Shown here: one piece after another, positions 33,707 through 50,500 of the stretch
How positions within the stretch are numbered: position 1 is the stretch's first letter
How the letters are laid out: each line of letters starts with the position of its first letter
Source of the DNA: Bradyrhizobium japonicum USDA 6
Lineage (GTDB): Bacteria; Pseudomonadota; Alphaproteobacteria; Rhizobiales; Xanthobacteraceae
Direction of reading: 5' to 3'
DNA: 64,000 nucleotides
Assembly: GCF_000284375.1 (NCBI RefSeq)
Contig: NC_017249.1
Span: 3,946,001-4,010,000 of the forward strand
Program-made: the position numbers and the translations under genes
Notes under the pieces: generated by a model
Seen by the model: only the letters and a program-made list of their open reading frames with translations
What the model was told of the DNA's origin: nothing
Databases searched by the model: none

Positions 33707-35575
33707 ATGTCGATCAGCAGCATCAACTACTCCTCGTCGGTTCTCGGCGCGCAGATCCGCAACATCAATCAGCAGCTCACCGACCTGTCGACGCAGCTCG
33801 CGACCGGCAAGCTGTCGCAGAACTATTCCGGGATGGGCACGAACGAGGGCTTTGCGATCGCCGGGCGCTCGCAGCTCTCCAACATCGCCGCCTATACCGA
33901 CACGATCACGAACGTGAACGTGAACATCAACCTCGCCAATACCGCGCTCCAGTCGCTCACGACGATCCGCAACACGGTGCAGACCGGCTCCGCGAGCACC
34001 GCGCAGGATCTCAACGTCAACGGACAGACCGTCGCGCAGAACACGGCCGCATCGCAGTTCGGCTCGATGGTCGGCGTTCTCAACACGCAGTCGGGCAACC
34101 GTTATCTGTTCTCCGGGACGGCGTTCAACACGCAGTCGGTTGCCAATGCCGGCGACATCATCAACGGCACGACCACGCAGGCGGGCTTCAAGACCGTCAT
34201 GGCGGAACGCCAGGCTGCCGACCTCGGTGCCAACGGCATGGGACGGCTGCTGCAGACGCAGCCGACGCCGAGCTCGGTGAGGGTGTCCGAGGACGTCGCC
34301 GGATCGCCGTTCGGAATGAAGATCGCGGCGGTGTCCTCGACGCTGACGGGTGCGACGGTCACCGGTCCGAGCGGCTCGCCGGTGTCGTTCTCGGTCGATC
34401 TCAACGGCCTCAACCCGAACGACGGCGACAAGCTGAGCGTCCAGTTCACGCTGCCGGACGGCTCGACCGAGCAGATCGTCTTGACCGCCTCGACTGCCAC
34501 GCCGACGCCGGCCGGCAGCTTCGCGATCGATACCACCACCCCTGCCAACACCGCCACCAACCTCAACGCCGCGCTGAACACCGCGATCACGAAGCTCGCC
34601 AACACTTCGCTGGTGGCGGCATCCGCCGTCACCGCAGGCGACAACTTCTTCAACACCGCGAGCTCGGCGATTGGCAGTGCCAAGACCAGCCAGGCGGCAA
34701 CACCGATAACGGGGGCGACCGCTCTGTCCGGCACGGCCCCCTCGGACTCGATCTCGCCGGGCTTCGCCGCCGGTGACACCATCACCGTGAACGGCACCAC
34801 GCTGACCTTCGTCAATTCGGGCGCGACCGGCAACCAGCTCAATGTCGGCGACAGCATCCAGACGCTGATGAGCAAGATCGACCAGATCACGGGCACGTCG
34901 AAGCCTTCGACCGTGCATGGCGGCTCGATCACGATCAACACGGACGACGCGGCGAGCCTCAGCATCACGACCTCGAACTCGGGCGCACTCAACGCGCTCG
35001 GCTTCGGCTCGACGCAGGTCACCGCGACGCAGCCGCCGCTGCGCGTCGGCTCGTCGCCGGCGAGCTCCGCGACGACGCTGGTCAACGGCTCGGCCAACAC
35101 CGTGAAATGGTACCAGGGCAATGATGGCCCCGGCTCGCCGCGCTCGACCGCAGTGGCGCGGGTCGACGATTCCGTGACGGTGCAGTATGGCGCGCAGGCC
35201 GACGAGGACGCGATCCGCCAGCAATTGCAGGCGATTGCTGTGTTCGGGACGTTCTCGACCTCGCCGACCAGCCAGTATGCGGGCGGGCAGGTCTCTGCGC
35301 TGAGCCTGCGGGTGACACAGTCGCTGACGAAGCAGCCCGGCCAGCAGCACATCGAGGACATCCAGACGGACCTCGCGATGGCCCAGAACACGATGAAGGA
35401 CGCCAGCACGCGCCAGACCCAGGCCAAGGCGCAGCTCCAGTCCATCATCGACCAGGCGGAATCGGCCTCGCCGGACCAGGTGGCGAGCGAGATCCTGTCG
35501 CTCCAGAACGCGCTTCAGGCGTCCTACCAGGTCACCTCGAACCTCGCGCAACTCTCGCTCGTCAAGTTCCTGTAA
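33707..35575 (+). CDS. flgL: Flagellar hook-associated protein 3
   Basis: 622 residues, about twice E. coli FlgL. The ends are flagellin-like ('RNINQQLTDLSTQLATGKL' and 'LQASYQVTSNLAQLSLVKFL'), as in FlgL. The middle has long beta-rich insertions, including a module at 34763-35005 homologous to those in FlgE and the flagellins. It makes the second junction layer between hook and filament. It follows flgK by 21 bases and ends the flgEKL operon. Confidence 0.92.
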   Translation: MSISSINYSSSVLGAQIRNINQQLTDLSTQLATGKLSQNYSGMGTNEGFAIAGRSQLSNIAAYTDTITNVNVNINLANTALQSLTTIRNTVQTGSASTAQDLNVNGQTVAQNTAASQFGSMVGVLNTQSGNRYLFSGTAFNTQSVANAGDIINGTTTQAGFKTVMAERQAADLGANGMGRLLQTQPTPSSVRVSEDVAGSPFGMKIAAVSSTLTGATVTGPSGSPVSFSVDLNGLNPNDGDKLSVQFTLPDGSTEQIVLTASTATPTPAGSFAIDTTTPANTATNLNAALNTAITKLANTSLVAASAVTAGDNFFNTASSAIGSAKTSQAATPITGATALSGTAPSDSISPGFAAGDTITVNGTTLTFVNSGATGNQLNVGDSIQTLMSKIDQITGTSKPSTVHGGSITINTDDAASLSITTSNSGALNALGFGSTQVTATQPPLRVGSSPASSATTLVNGSANTVKWYQGNDGPGSPRSTAVARVDDSVTVQYGAQADEDAIRQQLQAIAVFGTFSTSPTSQYAGGQVSALSLRVTQSLTKQPGQQHIEDIQTDLAMAQNTMKDASTRQTQAKAQLQSIIDQAESASPDQVASEILSLQNALQASYQVTSNLAQLSLVKFL

Positions 35576-35582
35576 CGGCGCA

Positions 35583-35601
35583 TTAAGACGCCGTTAACCA
35601 T
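35583..35601 (+). promoter_or_regulatory. CtrA-type box before the glycosyltransferase-PLP-ATP-grasp operon
   Basis: TTAAGACGCCGTTAACCAT is a perfect TTAA-N7-TTAA, with the second quartet also forming the TTAACCAT half-site. It lies 47 bases before the first gene of the four-gene operon. The same GCCGTTAACCAT string is present before fliX/flgI. Confidence 0.65.
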
Positions 35602-35647: not shown

Positions 35648-36430
35648 ATGTCGGACAAGATGCAACTGGTGGTGGCCACGCCATGCTTCGGCCGGCAGGT
35701 GTCGACCATCTACGCGAGTTCGGTCTTCGCGCTCCAGCGCGCCGTGCACGGCGTGCCCAATCTCGAGCTCAAGGTGCTCCTGCGCGACGGCGACGCCCTG
35801 ATCACGCGCGCGCGGGCCAATCTGGTCGCGATGTTCCTGGATGATCCCAAGGCGACGCATTTCCTGTTCATCGATGCCGATATCGGCTTCAAGCCGGAGC
35901 AGGTGTTCCGGCTAATCGAATGCGGCGCGGACGTCGTCGCCGGCTGCTATCCGATCAAGCAGGTCAACTGGGACAAGGCCAGGCGCGCGATCCAGTCCGG
36001 CCAAGCCGACGTGCCTGCCGCCTCGCTCGACTACGTGCTCGAGATCGAGGATCCCGACCACATCGTGGTGGTCAACGGTTTTACCCGCGTGCGCTACGCC
36101 GGCACCGGCTTCCTGATGATCCGCCGCCACGTGCTGGAGGCGATGTGCCGCCATCCCAACTATGCGGCCTTGCAATTCTTCCGCGAGCATTCGCACGACA
36201 CGCTGGCGGGGAGCCAGAACCGCTTCGCGCTGTTCGAATGCATGATCGATCCGGCGACCGGGACGTATCTCTCCGAGGACTTCGCCTTCTGCAAGCGCTG
36301 GACCGACATCGGCGGCGAGATCTGGGCCGACATCGAGAGCTCGCTGGATCACGTCGGCCCGTCGGTATTCCACGGCGACATCGCCTCGCAATTCGCAGCC
36401 GCGCCTGCGGCAGCTGCCGATGCCGCGTGA
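35648..36430 (+). CDS. GT-A-fold glycosyltransferase-like protein
   Basis: 260 residues. It opens 'MQLVVATPCFGRQVSTIY' and has 'ALITRARANLVAMFLDDP' followed by 'HFLFIDADIGFKPEQVFRL', a DxD-type metal/sugar-nucleotide motif (DAD) in the position expected for GT-A enzymes. 'DVVAGCYPIKQVNW' and a late 'YLSEDFAFCKRW' also fit this class. No signal peptide or membrane helix, so cytoplasmic. It is the first gene of a four-gene unit between flgL and flbT; flagellin or small-molecule glycosylation is a reasonable guess but unproven. Confidence 0.7.
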   Translation: MSDKMQLVVATPCFGRQVSTIYASSVFALQRAVHGVPNLELKVLLRDGDALITRARANLVAMFLDDPKATHFLFIDADIGFKPEQVFRLIECGADVVAGCYPIKQVNWDKARRAIQSGQADVPAASLDYVLEIEDPDHIVVVNGFTRVRYAGTGFLMIRRHVLEAMCRHPNYAALQFFREHSHDTLAGSQNRFALFECMIDPATGTYLSEDFAFCKRWTDIGGEIWADIESSLDHVGPSVFHGDIASQFAAAPAAAADAA

Positions 36431-38069
36431 GCCTTCCGGGATGAGTGCCGGCGCATCCGGTCTGTCAATCCCCGAGCGCACATTCGATGGCGGCTCGCGC
36501 TACCGCTTGCGCGATCTCTTCACGCCGCTGGACACGCTTCTCGTCTCCGGCGGAGATCCGCGGCTGGCGCTCGACGCTGGGGATCGCGTCAACGCCTATG
36601 GCTGTGCGGCCTCGCCGGAACCGGAGATCTGGAATTTCGCCTCCTCGACGGCATCGACGATCTCGCAATTCGCCTATGACCGCGCCGCGCTGGCGCGCGA
36701 AGAGCTGATGCACAGGTGCCTGTTCGACGAGGTGGAGATCGCCTTCGATGCGCGCTGCGAGGGCATGCGCGAGGAGTTGCGCGGCCATCTCCAGCTCTCG
36801 CCGCGCGTCGACGTCGTGTTCTCGCCGTCCGGGACGGATTCTCAGCTCCACGCCCTGTTCCTGGCGCGTGCGGTGCTCGGCGCCCCGCCAGTGACGATCG
36901 TGGTCGGGGCCGACCAGACCGGTAGCGGCACGGCCCATACCGCCCGCGGTCACCATTTCAGCTCCATGACGGCGAGCGGCTTTGTGGTCCGCAAGGACGG
37001 CGCGGTTGCCGGGCTTGCCGGCGCCAGCGTGACGTTGCCGCTGCTTCGGGATGGGCCCGGGATCGCGATGCGCGCCGACACCGATGCCGCGGTGCTGGGG
37101 GCGATCGAAGCGACGATCGCGCAAGGTGCGTCCGTGCTGCTTCAGATCATGGATTCCTCGAAGCTCGGCTGGCGCGCGCCGAGCGTGGCCTGTCTCGACG
37201 AGATCGCGCGGCGCTGGCCGCGCAAGGTTCAGGTCGTCGTCGACGCCTGTCAGGCGCGGCTCGGCCGCCGCCGGCTGCGCTCCTATCTCGACCGCGGCTA
37301 TATGGTGCTGATCACCGGCTCGAAATTCTTCGGCGGCCCTGCCTTCAGCGGCGCGCTGCTGGTGCCGAAAGGGTTTTCGCGGTCGCTCGACCGGATTGAG
37401 GGGATTGCGCCGGGCTTCTTCGACTATGCCGGCCGCTGCGATTGGCCGGTGGCCTGGACGGCGCTGCGCTCACGTTTCGAGCGCCGGCCGAATTTCGGAC
37501 AATGGCTGCGCTGGGAGGCGGCGCTCGCGGAGATCGGCAGCTACTACGGCGTGCCCGGAGCTTTCCGCGTCAGGGTGCTGGCCGAGCTTGCCGCCGGCAT
37601 CGACAGCATGATCGCGCTGTCGCCGTCGCTTCAACCCGTTCCAACGGCGACCGAGAAGACTGCCGGGGACGACGAGGAGTTCGCGCACGCCACGATCTTT
37701 CCGTTCATGCTGCTGCGCGACGGCAAGCCGGTCTCGATGGCCGAGACCGGCGCCATCCATCGGGCGCTACGGCGTGACATGAACGACGAGATCAGCGGCA
37801 GCTCGGCGGACCGGGAGGTCGCCGTCCAGCGCAGCCTGATCGGCCAGCCGGTCCGGCTGGAGCGGCAGGACGATGCGCCGCAGGCCGTGCTGCGCCTCTG
37901 CGTCGGCGCCCGGCTCGTGACCGAGGCCTGGTCGCCGGATATGGCGCAGGCACAACGCAATGTGCAGCACCTGCTCGATCGCATCGCTCATGTCCTGGTG
38001 AAGATCGAGCTGCTGCTTGACCGCGGCGCCGCCGCAACCGCGCCGGAAAAGTCCGCCTTCGAGGTATGA
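36420..38069 (+). CDS. PLP-dependent aminotransferase-fold enzyme of unknown reaction
   Basis: 549 residues from the first ATG, which overlaps the previous stop by 11 bases; Met8 (base 36441) is an equally good start, and neither has a strong ribosome-binding site. Features of fold type I are visible: 'VVFSPSGTDSQLHALFLAR' (phosphate-binding turn), the Asp in 'VVVDACQARLG' and the Schiff-base Lys in 'ITGSKFFGGPAFSGALLVP'. The overall pattern is nearest class V aminotransferases, but the protein is ~150 residues longer. It belongs to a tight operon with ATP-grasp and PLP-decarboxylase genes, so it probably acts on an amino-acid-derived intermediate. Substrate unknown. Confidence 0.7.
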   Translation: MPREPSGMSAGASGLSIPERTFDGGSRYRLRDLFTPLDTLLVSGGDPRLALDAGDRVNAYGCAASPEPEIWNFASSTASTISQFAYDRAALAREELMHRCLFDEVEIAFDARCEGMREELRGHLQLSPRVDVVFSPSGTDSQLHALFLARAVLGAPPVTIVVGADQTGSGTAHTARGHHFSSMTASGFVVRKDGAVAGLAGASVTLPLLRDGPGIAMRADTDAAVLGAIEATIAQGASVLLQIMDSSKLGWRAPSVACLDEIARRWPRKVQVVVDACQARLGRRRLRSYLDRGYMVLITGSKFFGGPAFSGALLVPKGFSRSLDRIEGIAPGFFDYAGRCDWPVAWTALRSRFERRPNFGQWLRWEAALAEIGSYYGVPGAFRVRVLAELAAGIDSMIALSPSLQPVPTATEKTAGDDEEFAHATIFPFMLLRDGKPVSMAETGAIHRALRRDMNDEISGSSADREVAVQRSLIGQPVRLERQDDAPQAVLRLCVGARLVTEAWSPDMAQAQRNVQHLLDRIAHVLVKIELLLDRGAAATAPEKSAFEV

Positions 38070-38070
38070 G

Positions 38071-39324
38071 ATGCAGCATCCAGTTTCCGCGCCGATCGGC
38101 GTGACCGTGCCGAACTATGCCGACCGCATCGGCTTTGCGCAGCTGACGCGCCAGGCCTTCGAAGGTGTCGATCTGCAGCCACTGCGCGATCAGCTCGTCA
38201 CGCGGATCACGGAAGGAGCCGCACACGCGGGCGAAGGCCTTGACCTATCGCTGATCGTCCAGCTACTCGGCGACAAGGCGGCGGGGCTGGCAATCCAGTC
38301 GGAGGTACTGACCTTCCATCAATTGTTTCGCACGCCCGCTGCGGCTCCAAAGCCCGGCTTGCGCGTGCTTGCGTTAGCGGCCGACATCGACATGGGCGGC
38401 AACACGCCGATCGAATTCCTGCTCGAAGGCTCCGATTTCGAGCTGCTGACGCTCTACGTGACCAAGGATGTCGGCTTGCCTGAAACGTTGCCCGATCACG
38501 ACGTCGCCATCGTGGTTGCATCCGATTCCGAGGAATGCCGGGAACCGCTCGCCCTGATCGAAAAGGCGGCGCAGCGCTGGCCGCGGCCGCTGCTCAATCG
38601 CCCCGATCTCATCGGCAACCTCGATCGCGACAAGCTGTATCGGCTGCTGGCGGGCATCCCTGGTCTCGAGATTCCATCGACCATCCACGCGACGCGAGCG
38701 CAATTGACGGATCTCGCGCAGGGCCGGATCGCTTGTGAGGACATCGCCGGCGAATTACGCTTTCCGATGATCGCGCGGCCGCGCGGTACGCATGCCGGTG
38801 TCGGGCTTGCGAGGCTCGACGATGCGCCTGCCCTCGCGGCCTATCTCGCCGAGCGCGAGGAGCAGGATTTCTTCGTCGCGCGCTTCGTCGATTATGCGAG
38901 CCCCGACGGACTCTACCGCAAATACCGTCTCGCGATGGTCGACGGCAAGCCCTACGCCTGCCACATGGCGATCGCCGATCGCTGGGACATCTGGTATCTC
39001 AACGCCTACATGGCGTTCAGCGAGGAGAAGCGGGCTGAAGAGGCCGTCTTCATGCTGGACTTCGACCACGCCTTCGCCGCGCGCCACAAGACCGCGCTCG
39101 ACGAAATGAGCCGGCGCGTCGGTCTCGATTATTTCATCGTCGATTGCGCCGAGAACCAGGACCGCGAGCTGCTGGTCTTCGAAGCCGACAACACCGCCGT
39201 CGTGCACAACATGGATTCGCCGGTCGTGTTTCCGTACAAGCCGCCGCAGATGCGCAAGATCTTTGCCGCGTTCACGGCGATGCTGTCGCGGCACGCAAGA
39301 GAGGGCAAGGTGAGCGCAGCATGA
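38071..39324 (+). CDS. ATP-grasp ligase-like protein
   Basis: 417 residues from the ATG at 38071 (GAGG upstream), directly abutting the previous stop. An N-terminal ~170-residue region is followed by an ATP-grasp fold: 'NRPDLIGNLDRDKLYRLL', 'FPMIARPRGTHAGVGLARL' (ATP-binding Lys-like position occupied by Arg, then the Gly-rich loop), 'EEQDFFVARFVDY', and 'LLVFEADNTAVVHNM' (Glu/Asp-Asn metal ligands). These enzymes join a carboxylate to an amine or thiol using ATP. The C-terminus overlaps the decarboxylase start by 4 bases (ATGA), indicating translational coupling. Substrates unknown. Confidence 0.75.
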   Translation: MQHPVSAPIGVTVPNYADRIGFAQLTRQAFEGVDLQPLRDQLVTRITEGAAHAGEGLDLSLIVQLLGDKAAGLAIQSEVLTFHQLFRTPAAAPKPGLRVLALAADIDMGGNTPIEFLLEGSDFELLTLYVTKDVGLPETLPDHDVAIVVASDSEECREPLALIEKAAQRWPRPLLNRPDLIGNLDRDKLYRLLAGIPGLEIPSTIHATRAQLTDLAQGRIACEDIAGELRFPMIARPRGTHAGVGLARLDDAPALAAYLAEREEQDFFVARFVDYASPDGLYRKYRLAMVDGKPYACHMAIADRWDIWYLNAYMAFSEEKRAEEAVFMLDFDHAFAARHKTALDEMSRRVGLDYFIVDCAENQDRELLVFEADNTAVVHNMDSPVVFPYKPPQMRKIFAAFTAMLSRHAREGKVSAA

Positions 39325-40820
39325 ACGAGATCATCCGCAACGCGCAAAGCTCCGTCGCGCAGGCTTCGCTCGATCCGCAGGACTGGAGCGAATTTCGCAC
39401 GCTCGCCCATCGCATGCTGGACGAGGCGATCGACCGCATCGCCAATATTCGCGCGCGTCCGGTGTGGCAGCCGATCCCCGATGACGTCCGTGCGGCATTC
39501 AAGGCCGACGTGCCGCGCGAGGCGAGCGACCTTGCCGATGTCTATCGCGAATTCGCCGAGCACGTCGCGCCCTATGCGACCGGCAACGTCCATCCCGGGT
39601 TCATGGGCTGGGTGCATGGCGGCGGCACCGCGGTCGGCATGCTCGCGGAGATGCTCGCAGCTGGCCTCAATGCCAATCTCGGCGGACGCGATCACATGCC
39701 GATTGAAGTCGAACGCCAGATCGTCGCGTGGATGCGGCGCCTGTTTGATTTCCCGGAGAGTGCGAGCGGTATCTTCGTCACGGGCACGTCGATGGCCAAT
39801 TTGATGGCGGTGCTGGTGGCGCGCACGAGCGCGCTCGGTACGCTGGCGCGGCAGCACGGCGTCGGCAATGACGGCGCGCTGCTCACGGCCTACACGTCGC
39901 AGGCGGCGCATGGCTGTGTCTCCAGGGCGATGGACATTGCCGGGCTCGGCACCGATGCGCTGCGCAAGATCGATGTCGATGCCGATCATCGTATCGACGT
40001 CGCCGCGTTGCGCGCGCAGATCGCGATCGATCGCGAAGTCGGCTTCAAACCGTTCCTGGTGATCGCATCTGCCGGCACGGTCGATATCGGCGCGATCGAC
40101 GACCTCAAGGCCATCGCTGAACTGTGCCGCGAGGAGGGAATCTGGTTTCACGTCGATGGCGCCTTCGGGGCGCTGGCGATCTTCTCGCCCGAGCTCGCGC
40201 CCATGCTCGGCGGCATCGAGCTCGCCGATTCCATTGCGCTCGACTTCCACAAATGGGGGCAGGTGCCGTACGACGCCGGCTTCCTGCTGGTGCGCGACGG
40301 CGAACTGCACCGGCAGGCCTTTGCGCAGCCGGCGGCCTATCTGCGCCGCGAGGCGAGGGGGCTTGCGGCGGGCGCGGTCTGGCCCTGCGATCTCGGCCCC
40401 GACCTGTCGCGCGGCTTCCGCGCGCTGAAGACCTGGTTCACGCTGAAGACGTTCGGCACTGACAGGCTGGGCGCCGTGATCGCGCGAAGCTGCGCGCTGG
40501 CGAAATATCTGGAGACGCGCGTGCTGGCCGAGCCGCGGCTGGAATTGCTGGCGCCGGTGAACCTCAACATGGTCTGCTTCCGCTACCGCGCCGACGATGC
40601 GGTCAATCGCGAGATCGTCGCCGACGTCCAGGAATCCGGCGTTGCGGCGCCCTCGAGCACGACGCTGGACGGCAGGTTCGCGATCCGCGCTGCCATCGTC
40701 AATCACCGTACCGACGAGACGGACATCGACGCGCTTGTGGCTGCGGTGCTGGAGTTCGGCGCGCGGCGGACCGGCGGTGGTCTGATCGAGGTCGAGGCGC
40801 CGCCGCTGGCGGCGCAGTGA
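39321..40820 (+). CDS. PLP-dependent group II amino-acid decarboxylase
   Basis: 499 residues, starting in the ATGA overlap. 'NVHPGFMGWVHGGGT' near the N-terminus, 'GIFVTGTSMANLMAVLVAR', 'GIWFHVDGAFGALA' (Asp on the pyridine N) and the PLP Lys in 'IALDFHKWGQVPYDAG' identify the DDC/glutamate-decarboxylase family. Expected reaction: removal of CO2 from an aromatic or acidic amino acid to give an amine. As the last gene of the glycosyltransferase-PLP-ATP-grasp operon it may supply the amine that the ATP-grasp enzyme couples. A strong stem-loop follows the stop. Confidence 0.88.
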   Translation: MNEIIRNAQSSVAQASLDPQDWSEFRTLAHRMLDEAIDRIANIRARPVWQPIPDDVRAAFKADVPREASDLADVYREFAEHVAPYATGNVHPGFMGWVHGGGTAVGMLAEMLAAGLNANLGGRDHMPIEVERQIVAWMRRLFDFPESASGIFVTGTSMANLMAVLVARTSALGTLARQHGVGNDGALLTAYTSQAAHGCVSRAMDIAGLGTDALRKIDVDADHRIDVAALRAQIAIDREVGFKPFLVIASAGTVDIGAIDDLKAIAELCREEGIWFHVDGAFGALAIFSPELAPMLGGIELADSIALDFHKWGQVPYDAGFLLVRDGELHRQAFAQPAAYLRREARGLAAGAVWPCDLGPDLSRGFRALKTWFTLKTFGTDRLGAVIARSCALAKYLETRVLAEPRLELLAPVNLNMVCFRYRADDAVNREIVADVQESGVAAPSSTTLDGRFAIRAAIVNHRTDETDIDALVAAVLEFGARRTGGGLIEVEAPPLAAQ

Positions 40821-40837: not shown

Positions 40838-40876
40838 ACGACAACGGCCCCGGAGATGATCCGGGGCCGTTGTCAT
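40838..40876. terminator. Bidirectional terminator between the decarboxylase gene and flbT
   Basis: GACAACGGCCCCGG and CCGGGGCCGTTGTC form a perfect 14-bp stem around a 7-base loop, followed by ATTT. It lies between two convergent genes. Confidence 0.75.
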
Positions 40877-40899: not shown

Positions 40900-41325
40900 T
40901 CAGGCGGCCGAGCTGACGTTGCCCTTGGGATGCGTCGCTTGGTACTGGTCCCGCAGCTTCTCTTCATAGGCGATCAGCTTGCGGGCATCCTTCAGTGCGC
41001 GGTAGAGATCGCCACTCATGATGTTGTTGTTGATGCTTTCGATGATCGGCCAGGCGCTCGGCACCGCAGTGATGATGTCGCGCACCAGGTTGAAGTAGGT
41101 GCCGTGCTGGCTCTGCGGATCCGGCGAGATGTACATGAGTTGGACCGCGAGATAGACGAGCTTGGCCGGCGTGTCGGCGGTCTCCGGCGTGAGGATGTCG
41201 CGCTCGCGCAGGATTGGCACGTTCTCGCCGTCGATCAGGAGGCGGGCGCGCTGGTCGGTGTTGGTGATCACCGAATTTCCGACGATGATGCGTTCGTGCG
41301 GTTTGAGCTCAACCTTGAGAGCCAT
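40900..41325 (-). CDS. flbT: Flagellar biosynthesis repressor FlbT
   Basis: 141 residues, full length for FlbT. It begins 'MALKVELKPHERIIVGNSVI' and contains 'RARLLIDGENVPILRE' and 'YRALKDARKLIAYEEKL', matching the family. In Caulobacter FlbT binds the 5' leader of flagellin mRNA and lowers its stability; in other rhizobia it can act positively. It is divergent from fliC1 and opposes FlaF, encoded just beyond the flagellins. A near-CtrA box lies in the shared 323-base spacer. Confidence 0.93.
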   Translation of the reverse strand: MALKVELKPHERIIVGNSVITNTDQRARLLIDGENVPILRERDILTPETADTPAKLVYLAVQLMYISPDPQSQHGTYFNLVRDIITAVPSAWPIIESINNNIMSGDLYRALKDARKLIAYEEKLRDQYQATHPKGNVSSAA

Positions 41326-41418: not shown

Positions 41419-41437
41419 ATGGTTAACAGGTCGTAAA
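41419..41437. promoter_or_regulatory. Near-CtrA box in the flbT-fliC1 spacer
   Basis: ATGGTTAACAGGTCGTAAA contains TTAA-N7-TAAA, one base off the TTAA-N7-TTAA consensus. On the minus strand it reads TTAACCAT. It lies ~95 bases before flbT and ~215 bases before fliC1. Confidence 0.4.
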
Positions 41438-43357: not shown

Positions 43358-43407
43358 TTAATACCTTGTTAACCCTGTGGCTTAAGTGGCCATTAACCTT
43401 AATTTAA
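43358..43407 (+). promoter_or_regulatory. Array of CtrA-type boxes before fliC2
   Basis: Five TTAA quartets start at 43358, 43369, 43382, 43393 and 43404. They form TTAA-N7-TTAA at 43358-43372, 43382-43396 and 43393-43407, the last two sharing a quartet. All quartets but one step are 11 bases apart, on one face of the helix. The fliC2 start is 91 bases downstream. Confidence 0.65.
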
Positions 43408-50332: not shown

Positions 50333-50500
50333 GCCTTCGGCCGCCCCCGGGCTCTCCAGGATAAACCTTCCTGTGCAAGGGCTTGGGGGCGCTAACCGAA
50401 CGATCAGGGAAATATTGTCTGTCACATGAGGCCACTATATAAGCCCGGCTTAACGGACCCGTTTCCGTTGCGAGTCGTTGCTTAGACAGATAGGCCGCCC

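Follow-up and report, generated by a model that had tools for sequence, protein, structure and literature searches.

Two described systems of flagellin glycosylation come closest to the locus reported here. In islands of the FlmG type, known from Caulobacter, glycosyltransferase-type genes lie by flagellin, flbT and flaF. The type B flagellin glycan of Clostridioides difficile is a sulfonated peptidylamido-glycan, in which amino-acid-derived amides are carried on the flagellin sugar, and its genes lie beside flagellin. The present locus consists of four open reading frames on the + strand, G1 to G4, placed between flgL and flbT in a flagellar island of Bradyrhizobium japonicum USDA 6. It was analysed within a stretch of 64,000 nucleotides (NC_017249.1, positions 3,946,001 to 4,010,000 of the forward strand; hereafter the window, whose first letter is position 1) of a 9.2 Mb genome that forms a single contig. 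The genes encode a candidate GT-A-like glycosyltransferase (G1), a fold-type I pyridoxal 5'-phosphate (PLP) enzyme (G2), a candidate ATP-grasp ligase (G3) and a group II PLP decarboxylase (G4).

Related islands resemble the FlmG type in having, downstream of flgL, proteins with tetratricopeptide repeats (TPR) and a GT9 domain, an architecture which we take to be that of FlmG. Unlike that type, the window operon encodes a pair of PLP enzymes together with a candidate ATP-grasp ligase, and none of G1 to G4 matched a sugar-synthesis family. The C. difficile locus, which is likened here by description only, differs in that it is not known to include a PLP pair of the G2/G4 kind. Flagellin modification is thus of a known kind, and the enzyme set G1 to G4 would be new for that purpose. 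What is new here is a three-gene core, G2-G3-G4, that occurs beyond Bradyrhizobium, is tied to one FlgL type and carries a CtrA-type box also where flagellar genes are not close by. In a literature search of very limited reach, no publication on bll5847 to bll5852 was found and the other abstracts listed were not to the point, and novelty was judged mainly from sequence libraries.

The G2-G3-G4 core and one FlgL type

Named genomes were scanned, and of the 273 stretches confirmed the 80 best make up the locus set; shares of this set need not hold for carriers at large. Genes were called by a script that relies on a GC-bias rule, and some starts are overextended. G2, G3 and G4 are all present in 73/80 loci, whereas G1 is found in 53, namely the flagellar, Bradyrhizobium-type ones; in 58 loci the fetched stretch includes a flagellar gene. 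Among the seven incomplete loci, L066, L075, L080 and L086 are cut at contig ends and L068 stops at the end of the fetched stretch, and the remaining two are L062, without G3, and L065, without G4. The core is found in four orders: G2-G3-G4, G4-G2-G3 (two copies in a metagenome-assembled genome, MAG, of the Chthonomonadaceae), G3-G4-G2 (L067) and G3-G2-G4 (a Rhizobium tumorigenes plasmid, whose G2 is 31% identical to that of the window). It occurs mainly in Alphaproteobacteria, for example in Rhodopseudomonas and Rhodospirillales MAGs, and beyond them in the Chthonomonadaceae (Armatimonadota) MAG and an Acidobacteriales MAG. Partial sets are also seen, with G3 and G4 but no G2 in two genomes (adjacent in G014, on separate contigs in G147), G2 and G4 without G3 in L062, L046 and L049, and G2 and G3 without G4 in L035 and L065. 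Because the three genes keep company though their order is shuffled, a joint function is well supported, and judging from sequence they probably form a functional unit. The four-gene unit proposed by an earlier, sequence-only reading of this DNA stands as an operon in the window, but it does not hold in every locus, where the constant part is the three-gene core.

Within Bradyrhizobium, 89 genomes were searched with FlgL, G1, G2, G3 and G4, and the counts that follow are among the FlgL matches listed. Genomes whose FlgL is at least 56% identical to the window FlgL form class A (58 genomes) and those at or below 53% form class B (31 genomes), a cut-off that was set after the gap was seen. Genes were counted as near flgL when on the same contig and at most 25 kb away. 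The best FlgL match per genome was used, with the identity of the best piece where FlgL was in pieces; G3 matches of at least 434 bits were used, and weaker ATP-grasp matches, second FlgL pieces and second G1 paralogue matches were left out. G1 and/or G3 lies near flgL in 58/58 class A genomes, whereas none of G1, G2 and G3 is near flgL in any of the 31 class B genomes. All three are near flgL in 51 of the 58, G1 and G3 in five, G1 only in one and G3 only in one. The order flgL-G1-G2-G3 holds in 48 of the 51 genomes with all three matches, a group that includes one genome with a G2 remnant (G557), three with a partial or split G1 (G595, G611, G654) and one with a split G2 (G652). At most 25 kb separate G4 from flgL in 57/58 class A genomes, the exception being G616 (80% complete); in class B, the 31 genomes yield a single G4 match, to a distant relative located away from flgL in G601. 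Five class B islands average 49-59% identity to the window for FlgE, FlgK, FlgL and FliC, and 89% for FlgI (n=4).

Enzyme classes of the four gene products

G1, G2 and G3 have no Pfam family at E<=1, and their class calls therefore needed fold or profile evidence. The classes named in the sequence-only reading are clear for G4 and have good fold support for G2, but the support for G1 and G3 is moderate to weak.

G4 (39321..40820, 499 aa) matches PF00282 with 222.6 bits against a curated cut-off of 27, and the whole domain is covered, as in the known group II decarboxylases (aromatic amino acid decarboxylase, AADC, and the tryptophan and diaminobutyrate decarboxylases). The PLP lysine is kept, with H310-K311 nearly invariant, and the closest solved relative by sequence is a tryptophan decarboxylase (4obu, E 3e-62). 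Unlike the described members, G4 stays under every NCBIfam equivalog cut-off and falls in a sub-branch often accompanied by G3 and G2. Its best NCBIfam model is diaminobutyrate decarboxylase, and its score does not identify it as the L-2,4-diaminobutyrate decarboxylase RhbB (186.4 vs 900 bits). Relatives that are 43-45% identical adjoin CysK-like cysteine synthase genes (L192 9005-11593, L193 9304-11983), which on sequence grounds may serve as a lead only towards cysteate or diaminopropionate. Taurine was rejected as a product name for want of direct evidence. A defence system is likewise unsupported, PADLOC having given merely weak cysteine-desulfurase-type matches of G4.

G2 (36420..38069, 549 aa, or 542 aa from the ATG at 36441) is assigned to the fold-type I PLP enzymes by its predicted fold and by an invariant lysine at the position presumed for the PLP-binding residue. 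As to the subgroup, VIA-align favours the alanine-glyoxylate aminotransferase (AGT)/NifS/C-DES type, which we take to be class V, and Foldseek places AADC and glutamate decarboxylase (GAD), both group II decarboxylases, first. G2 is probably class V-like, as far as a predicted model can tell, but differs from the known class V enzymes in this Foldseek ranking, in the lack of any Pfam or NCBIfam match and in its chance-level matches to PDB sequences. All 120 relatives listed are from Bradyrhizobium wherever an organism is named, two of them entitled 'Bll5850 protein'; relatives were found in 3/289 class-level and 38/296 family-level genomes, own genome counted. Some distant relatives sit by genes for non-ribosomal peptide synthetases (NRPS). 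On the Sinorhizobium medicae plasmid pSMED03 (L203 18025-19560) one shares bases with the end of a very long NRPS gene, close to genes for a phosphopantetheinyl transferase and a SagB-type dehydrogenase, and in G599 (L156 3-7904) another comes after an NRPS with a thioesterase.

G3 (38071..39324, 417 aa) has a profile match to D-Ala-D-Ala ligase in the PDB at E 0.003 and a weak one to NCBIfam rimK_fam (E 0.03), and the source annotation uses the names 'ATP-grasp' and 'RimK family'. Like RimK and D-Ala-D-Ala ligase it keeps ligand-type acidic residues (D358 and E371 are invariant), and unlike them it has zero Pfam matches and an E-value of only 0.003. Its wider relatives include several TPR + ATP-grasp-like proteins, together with weak RimK and CofF matches. 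In one locus (L200 2-6250) a TPR + GT41 protein adjoins two ATP-grasp-like proteins, of which the one scanned has TPRs, a pairing that suggests protein-directed ligases. Elsewhere (L199 8674-10974) a TauD-type dioxygenase, TPRs and an ATP-grasp-like end are joined in a single protein, which adjoins secretion-system look-alike genes (unscanned). A further PLP enzyme is met on a Paraburkholderia plasmid (L207 8941-11306), where the gene annotated serC and that of a G3 relative overlap.

G1 (35648..36430, 260 aa) gave a predicted model of low confidence (mean local score pLDDT 53), whose best Foldseek matches are mostly glycosyltransferases that we take to be of the GT-A fold class, with a top E of 3.4e-4 and TM-scores of 0.2-0.4 only. 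Its DAD motif at 76-78 is invariant among the 8 homologues compared, and against PDB sequences only chance-level matches were found. In L151-L154, G1 paralogues (35-36%) are each preceded by a similar-looking gene of 202-206 codons.

Promoter box, operon layout and neighbouring genes

A promoter box ahead of the operon had been claimed from the letters, and it exists: TTAA-N7-TTAAC occurs with zero mismatches at 35583..35598 (+ strand), in the flgL-G1 gap. This pattern and TTAACCAT are what we take to be the CtrA consensus, which makes the site a putative CtrA-regulon box. Across 13 aligned flgL-G1 gaps the second half-site TTAAC never varies and the first hardly does. With at most one mismatch allowed, TTAA-N7-TTAAC is matched 13 times in the window when the strands are counted separately, several of these matches being both strands of one palindromic site, vs 0.47 expected. 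Perfect copies lie twice before the second flagellin (43358-43373 and 43382-43397), and single-mismatch sites precede flbT (41422..41437, - strand) and fliX, adjoin one flagellin site and occur at 50439, where there is no flagellar gene. GTTAACCAT is found 4 times vs 0.06 expected, upstream of G1, flbT, fliX and fliL.

The box is also enriched before core copies that lie away from flagellar genes. TTAACCAT, with at most one mismatch and within 350 bases upstream, was found at 20/35 non-flagellar core loci vs 16/301 neighbouring genes (Fisher p 1e-13), the background being anchored on called gene starts and the core on the first aligned residue. L055, with 2 bases upstream, was scored as a miss among the 35 and dropped from the full-pattern test (34). 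One genome contributes two copies, L061 and L063, and related genomes are not independent tests. Outside the Rhodopseudomonas-type relatives, the TTAACCAT box is found in 9/24. The full pattern with at most one mismatch gave 14/34 vs 8/301, and 3/23 (p 0.036) without the Rhodopseudomonas-type relatives; with at most two mismatches, the latter share is 13/23 vs 38/301 (p 3e-6).

The gene positions, overlaps and gaps between flgL and flbT are all as they had been described. G1 and G2 overlap by 11 bases, or leave a 10-base gap with the later G2 start, G2 and G3 are separated by 1 base, and G3 and G4 overlap at ATGA. Upstream, the flgL-type gene for a hook-filament junction protein (33707..35575, + strand) follows flgK. 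Its product has no Pfam match and stays below the cut-offs of the NCBIfam FlgL and flagellin models, so that the name rests on these sub-threshold matches, its place after flgK and the call made in the sequence-only reading. Downstream, the convergent flbT (40900..41325, - strand) scores 231.8 bits with NCBIfam FlbT (cut-off 153). The strong stem-loop noted earlier between the convergent G4 and flbT (40840..40874, + strand) is real, with a perfect 15-bp stem, -40.5 kcal/mol and z -6.5, a value equalled by 0/200 shuffles; it is a probable terminator, although it was absent from the hits of a T-tailed terminator scan. No sigma-70 promoter came up in a scan for such sites. Among the window neighbours, NCBIfam confirms FlbT, FlaF, FliX and FlgI, and Pfam confirms FlgE, FlgK (FlgK_D1), both flagellins and FliL.

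Linkage of the core to flagellin or filament genes, as expected of a flagellin-modification system, is seen in the Bradyrhizobium islands and in two other settings. In G331 (L035) the order is flaF, one small gene, G2, G3 and flbT, and G4 was not seen; a Rhodospirillales MAG (L051/L053) has flagellins and flbT around all or part of the core. A TPR protein lies downstream of flgL in eight islands. Seven of these proteins form one family (L068, L072, L083, L146-L149), in which four compared proteins are 74-77% identical to that of L083, and those of L072 and L083, which were scanned, are TPR + Glyco_transf_9 proteins. In L072, L083, L146, L147 and L149, two different G3-type ATP-grasp genes flank the TPR-GT-type gene. 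The eighth, from the class B island L144, is 40% like the TPR-GT9 proteins and matches TPR and no glycosyltransferase in Pfam. The idea that class B islands hold a replacement system was rejected, as 4/5 inspected have flgL directly followed by convergent flbT, L144 being the fifth.

Proposed filament decoration and rival explanations

The linkage of G2, G3 and G4, their association with a single FlgL type in Bradyrhizobium, the box and the kept catalytic-type residues are the observed base, from which we infer a reaction order, an amide, a sugar, a filament target and CtrA as regulator. G2, G3 and G4 would work jointly as a small pathway, in which G2, as a class V-like PLP enzyme, may ready or change an amino acid, G4 would turn an amino acid into an amine by decarboxylation, and G3 would spend ATP to couple the amine or amino group with a carboxylate, giving an amide. 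In the Bradyrhizobium island, a sugar carrying the amide group would then be transferred by G1 to the filament, that is, to flagellin and perhaps FlgK/FlgL. The CtrA-type box would turn the operon on with the flagellar genes, and the stem-loop would close it. Decoration of the filament with an amino-acid-derived amine or amide by G2-G4, with sugar transfer by G1 and control through the CtrA-type box, is the explanation that we put forward, at close to an even chance. In its fuller form the core would build an amine-bearing amide decoration and, in Bradyrhizobium, would have a glycosyltransferase of its own, be timed through CtrA and pass down together with a single filament type; this is more tentative and falls clearly short of even.

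The link to the flagellum, already proposed from the sequence alone, is supported by the 58/58 vs 0/31 FlgL split, by the promoter box and by the carriers: a flagellin N-domain match was found in 30 of 31 hand-chosen carrier genomes (29 over the cut-off, and G147 below it), including the Chthonomonadaceae MAG, the sole one without being the Acidobacteriales MAG (G679); G014 and G147 carry G3 and G4 only. In the loci kept and the carriers chosen, the genes are neither mostly apart nor mostly in genomes without flagellin-type genes, and the refuting condition set in the sequence-only reading did not hold. Several observations weigh against decoration of the filament. The flagellin count, drawn from carriers only, supports the link without proving it. 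No flagellar gene is seen in the fetched stretch of 22/80 loci. No TTAACCAT box was found before 15/35 non-flagellar copies (L055, counted as a miss, and L046, L048, L049, L052, L057-L059, L061-L063, L066, L118, L155 and L156), and 11/20 boxed copies are close, Rhodopseudomonas-type relatives. The FlgL split, with its cut-off chosen post hoc, may be plain phylogeny; far class A islands diverge too (FlgL 59%, FlgK 67%, FliC 68%), and since filament genes diverge also within class A, the argument from filament type is not clean. Finally, no G2 match lies near flgL in 7/58 class A genomes (two of them <90% complete), and in G557 (L050 9356-9484) G2 has shrunk to a short remnant beside G1, G3 and G4 of near full length, so G2 is not always needed.

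In the main rival explanation, the core might make a free, exported small molecule (a signal, a chemoeffector or a protective metabolite), with genes that are just motility-timed, which we regard as possible, if doubtful. Transporters flank some copies, EamA-like at L057 (28.6 bits), L059 (32.8) and L066 (35.0; cut-off 28.2) and of the major facilitator superfamily (MFS) at L054. A chemoreceptor with Cache and methyl-accepting chemotaxis protein (MCP) domains lies directly upstream of the core in the Rhodopseudomonas-type L037, chemoreceptor look-alikes (unscanned) are seen upstream of it in several other loci, and the NRPS genes beside distant G2 relatives also fit a small molecule. Against this, the Bradyrhizobium operon has no transporter gene, the set follows a single FlgL type there, and it is in this setting that a GT-A-like gene joins it. 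A free product and filament decoration can both be true, in different lineages. It is unlikely that G3 instead ligates an amino acid or amine straight onto a flagellar protein in the manner of RimK, with G2 and G4 supplying the group and G1 acting in a separate glycosylation: the TPR + ATP-grasp-like relatives of G3, one pair of them beside the TPR + GT41 protein, suit protein substrates, and the weak RimK and CofF matches point the same way, but the window G3 has no Pfam TPR match. More improbable still is a passenger metabolic cassette in a variable region of the flagellar island, with no role in motility. The flgL-flbT gap does take TPR-GT-type genes elsewhere (L144, L148) or none (L141-L143, L145), and many core copies sit in other places; yet the box is enriched away from the islands, flagellar neighbours recur in separate lineages, and the FlgL classes split without exception.

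Decoration of the filament by the core thus remains the explanation that we prefer, at the strength given above. A common function would be assigned to three enzyme families, two of which (G2 and G3) are without a Pfam match here. A free product would be a metabolite timed with motility. Plant hosts perceive flagellin, and if the filament is the target, the operon would represent a new flagellin chemistry in plant-associated rhizobia and would explain why it occurs with one FlgL type.

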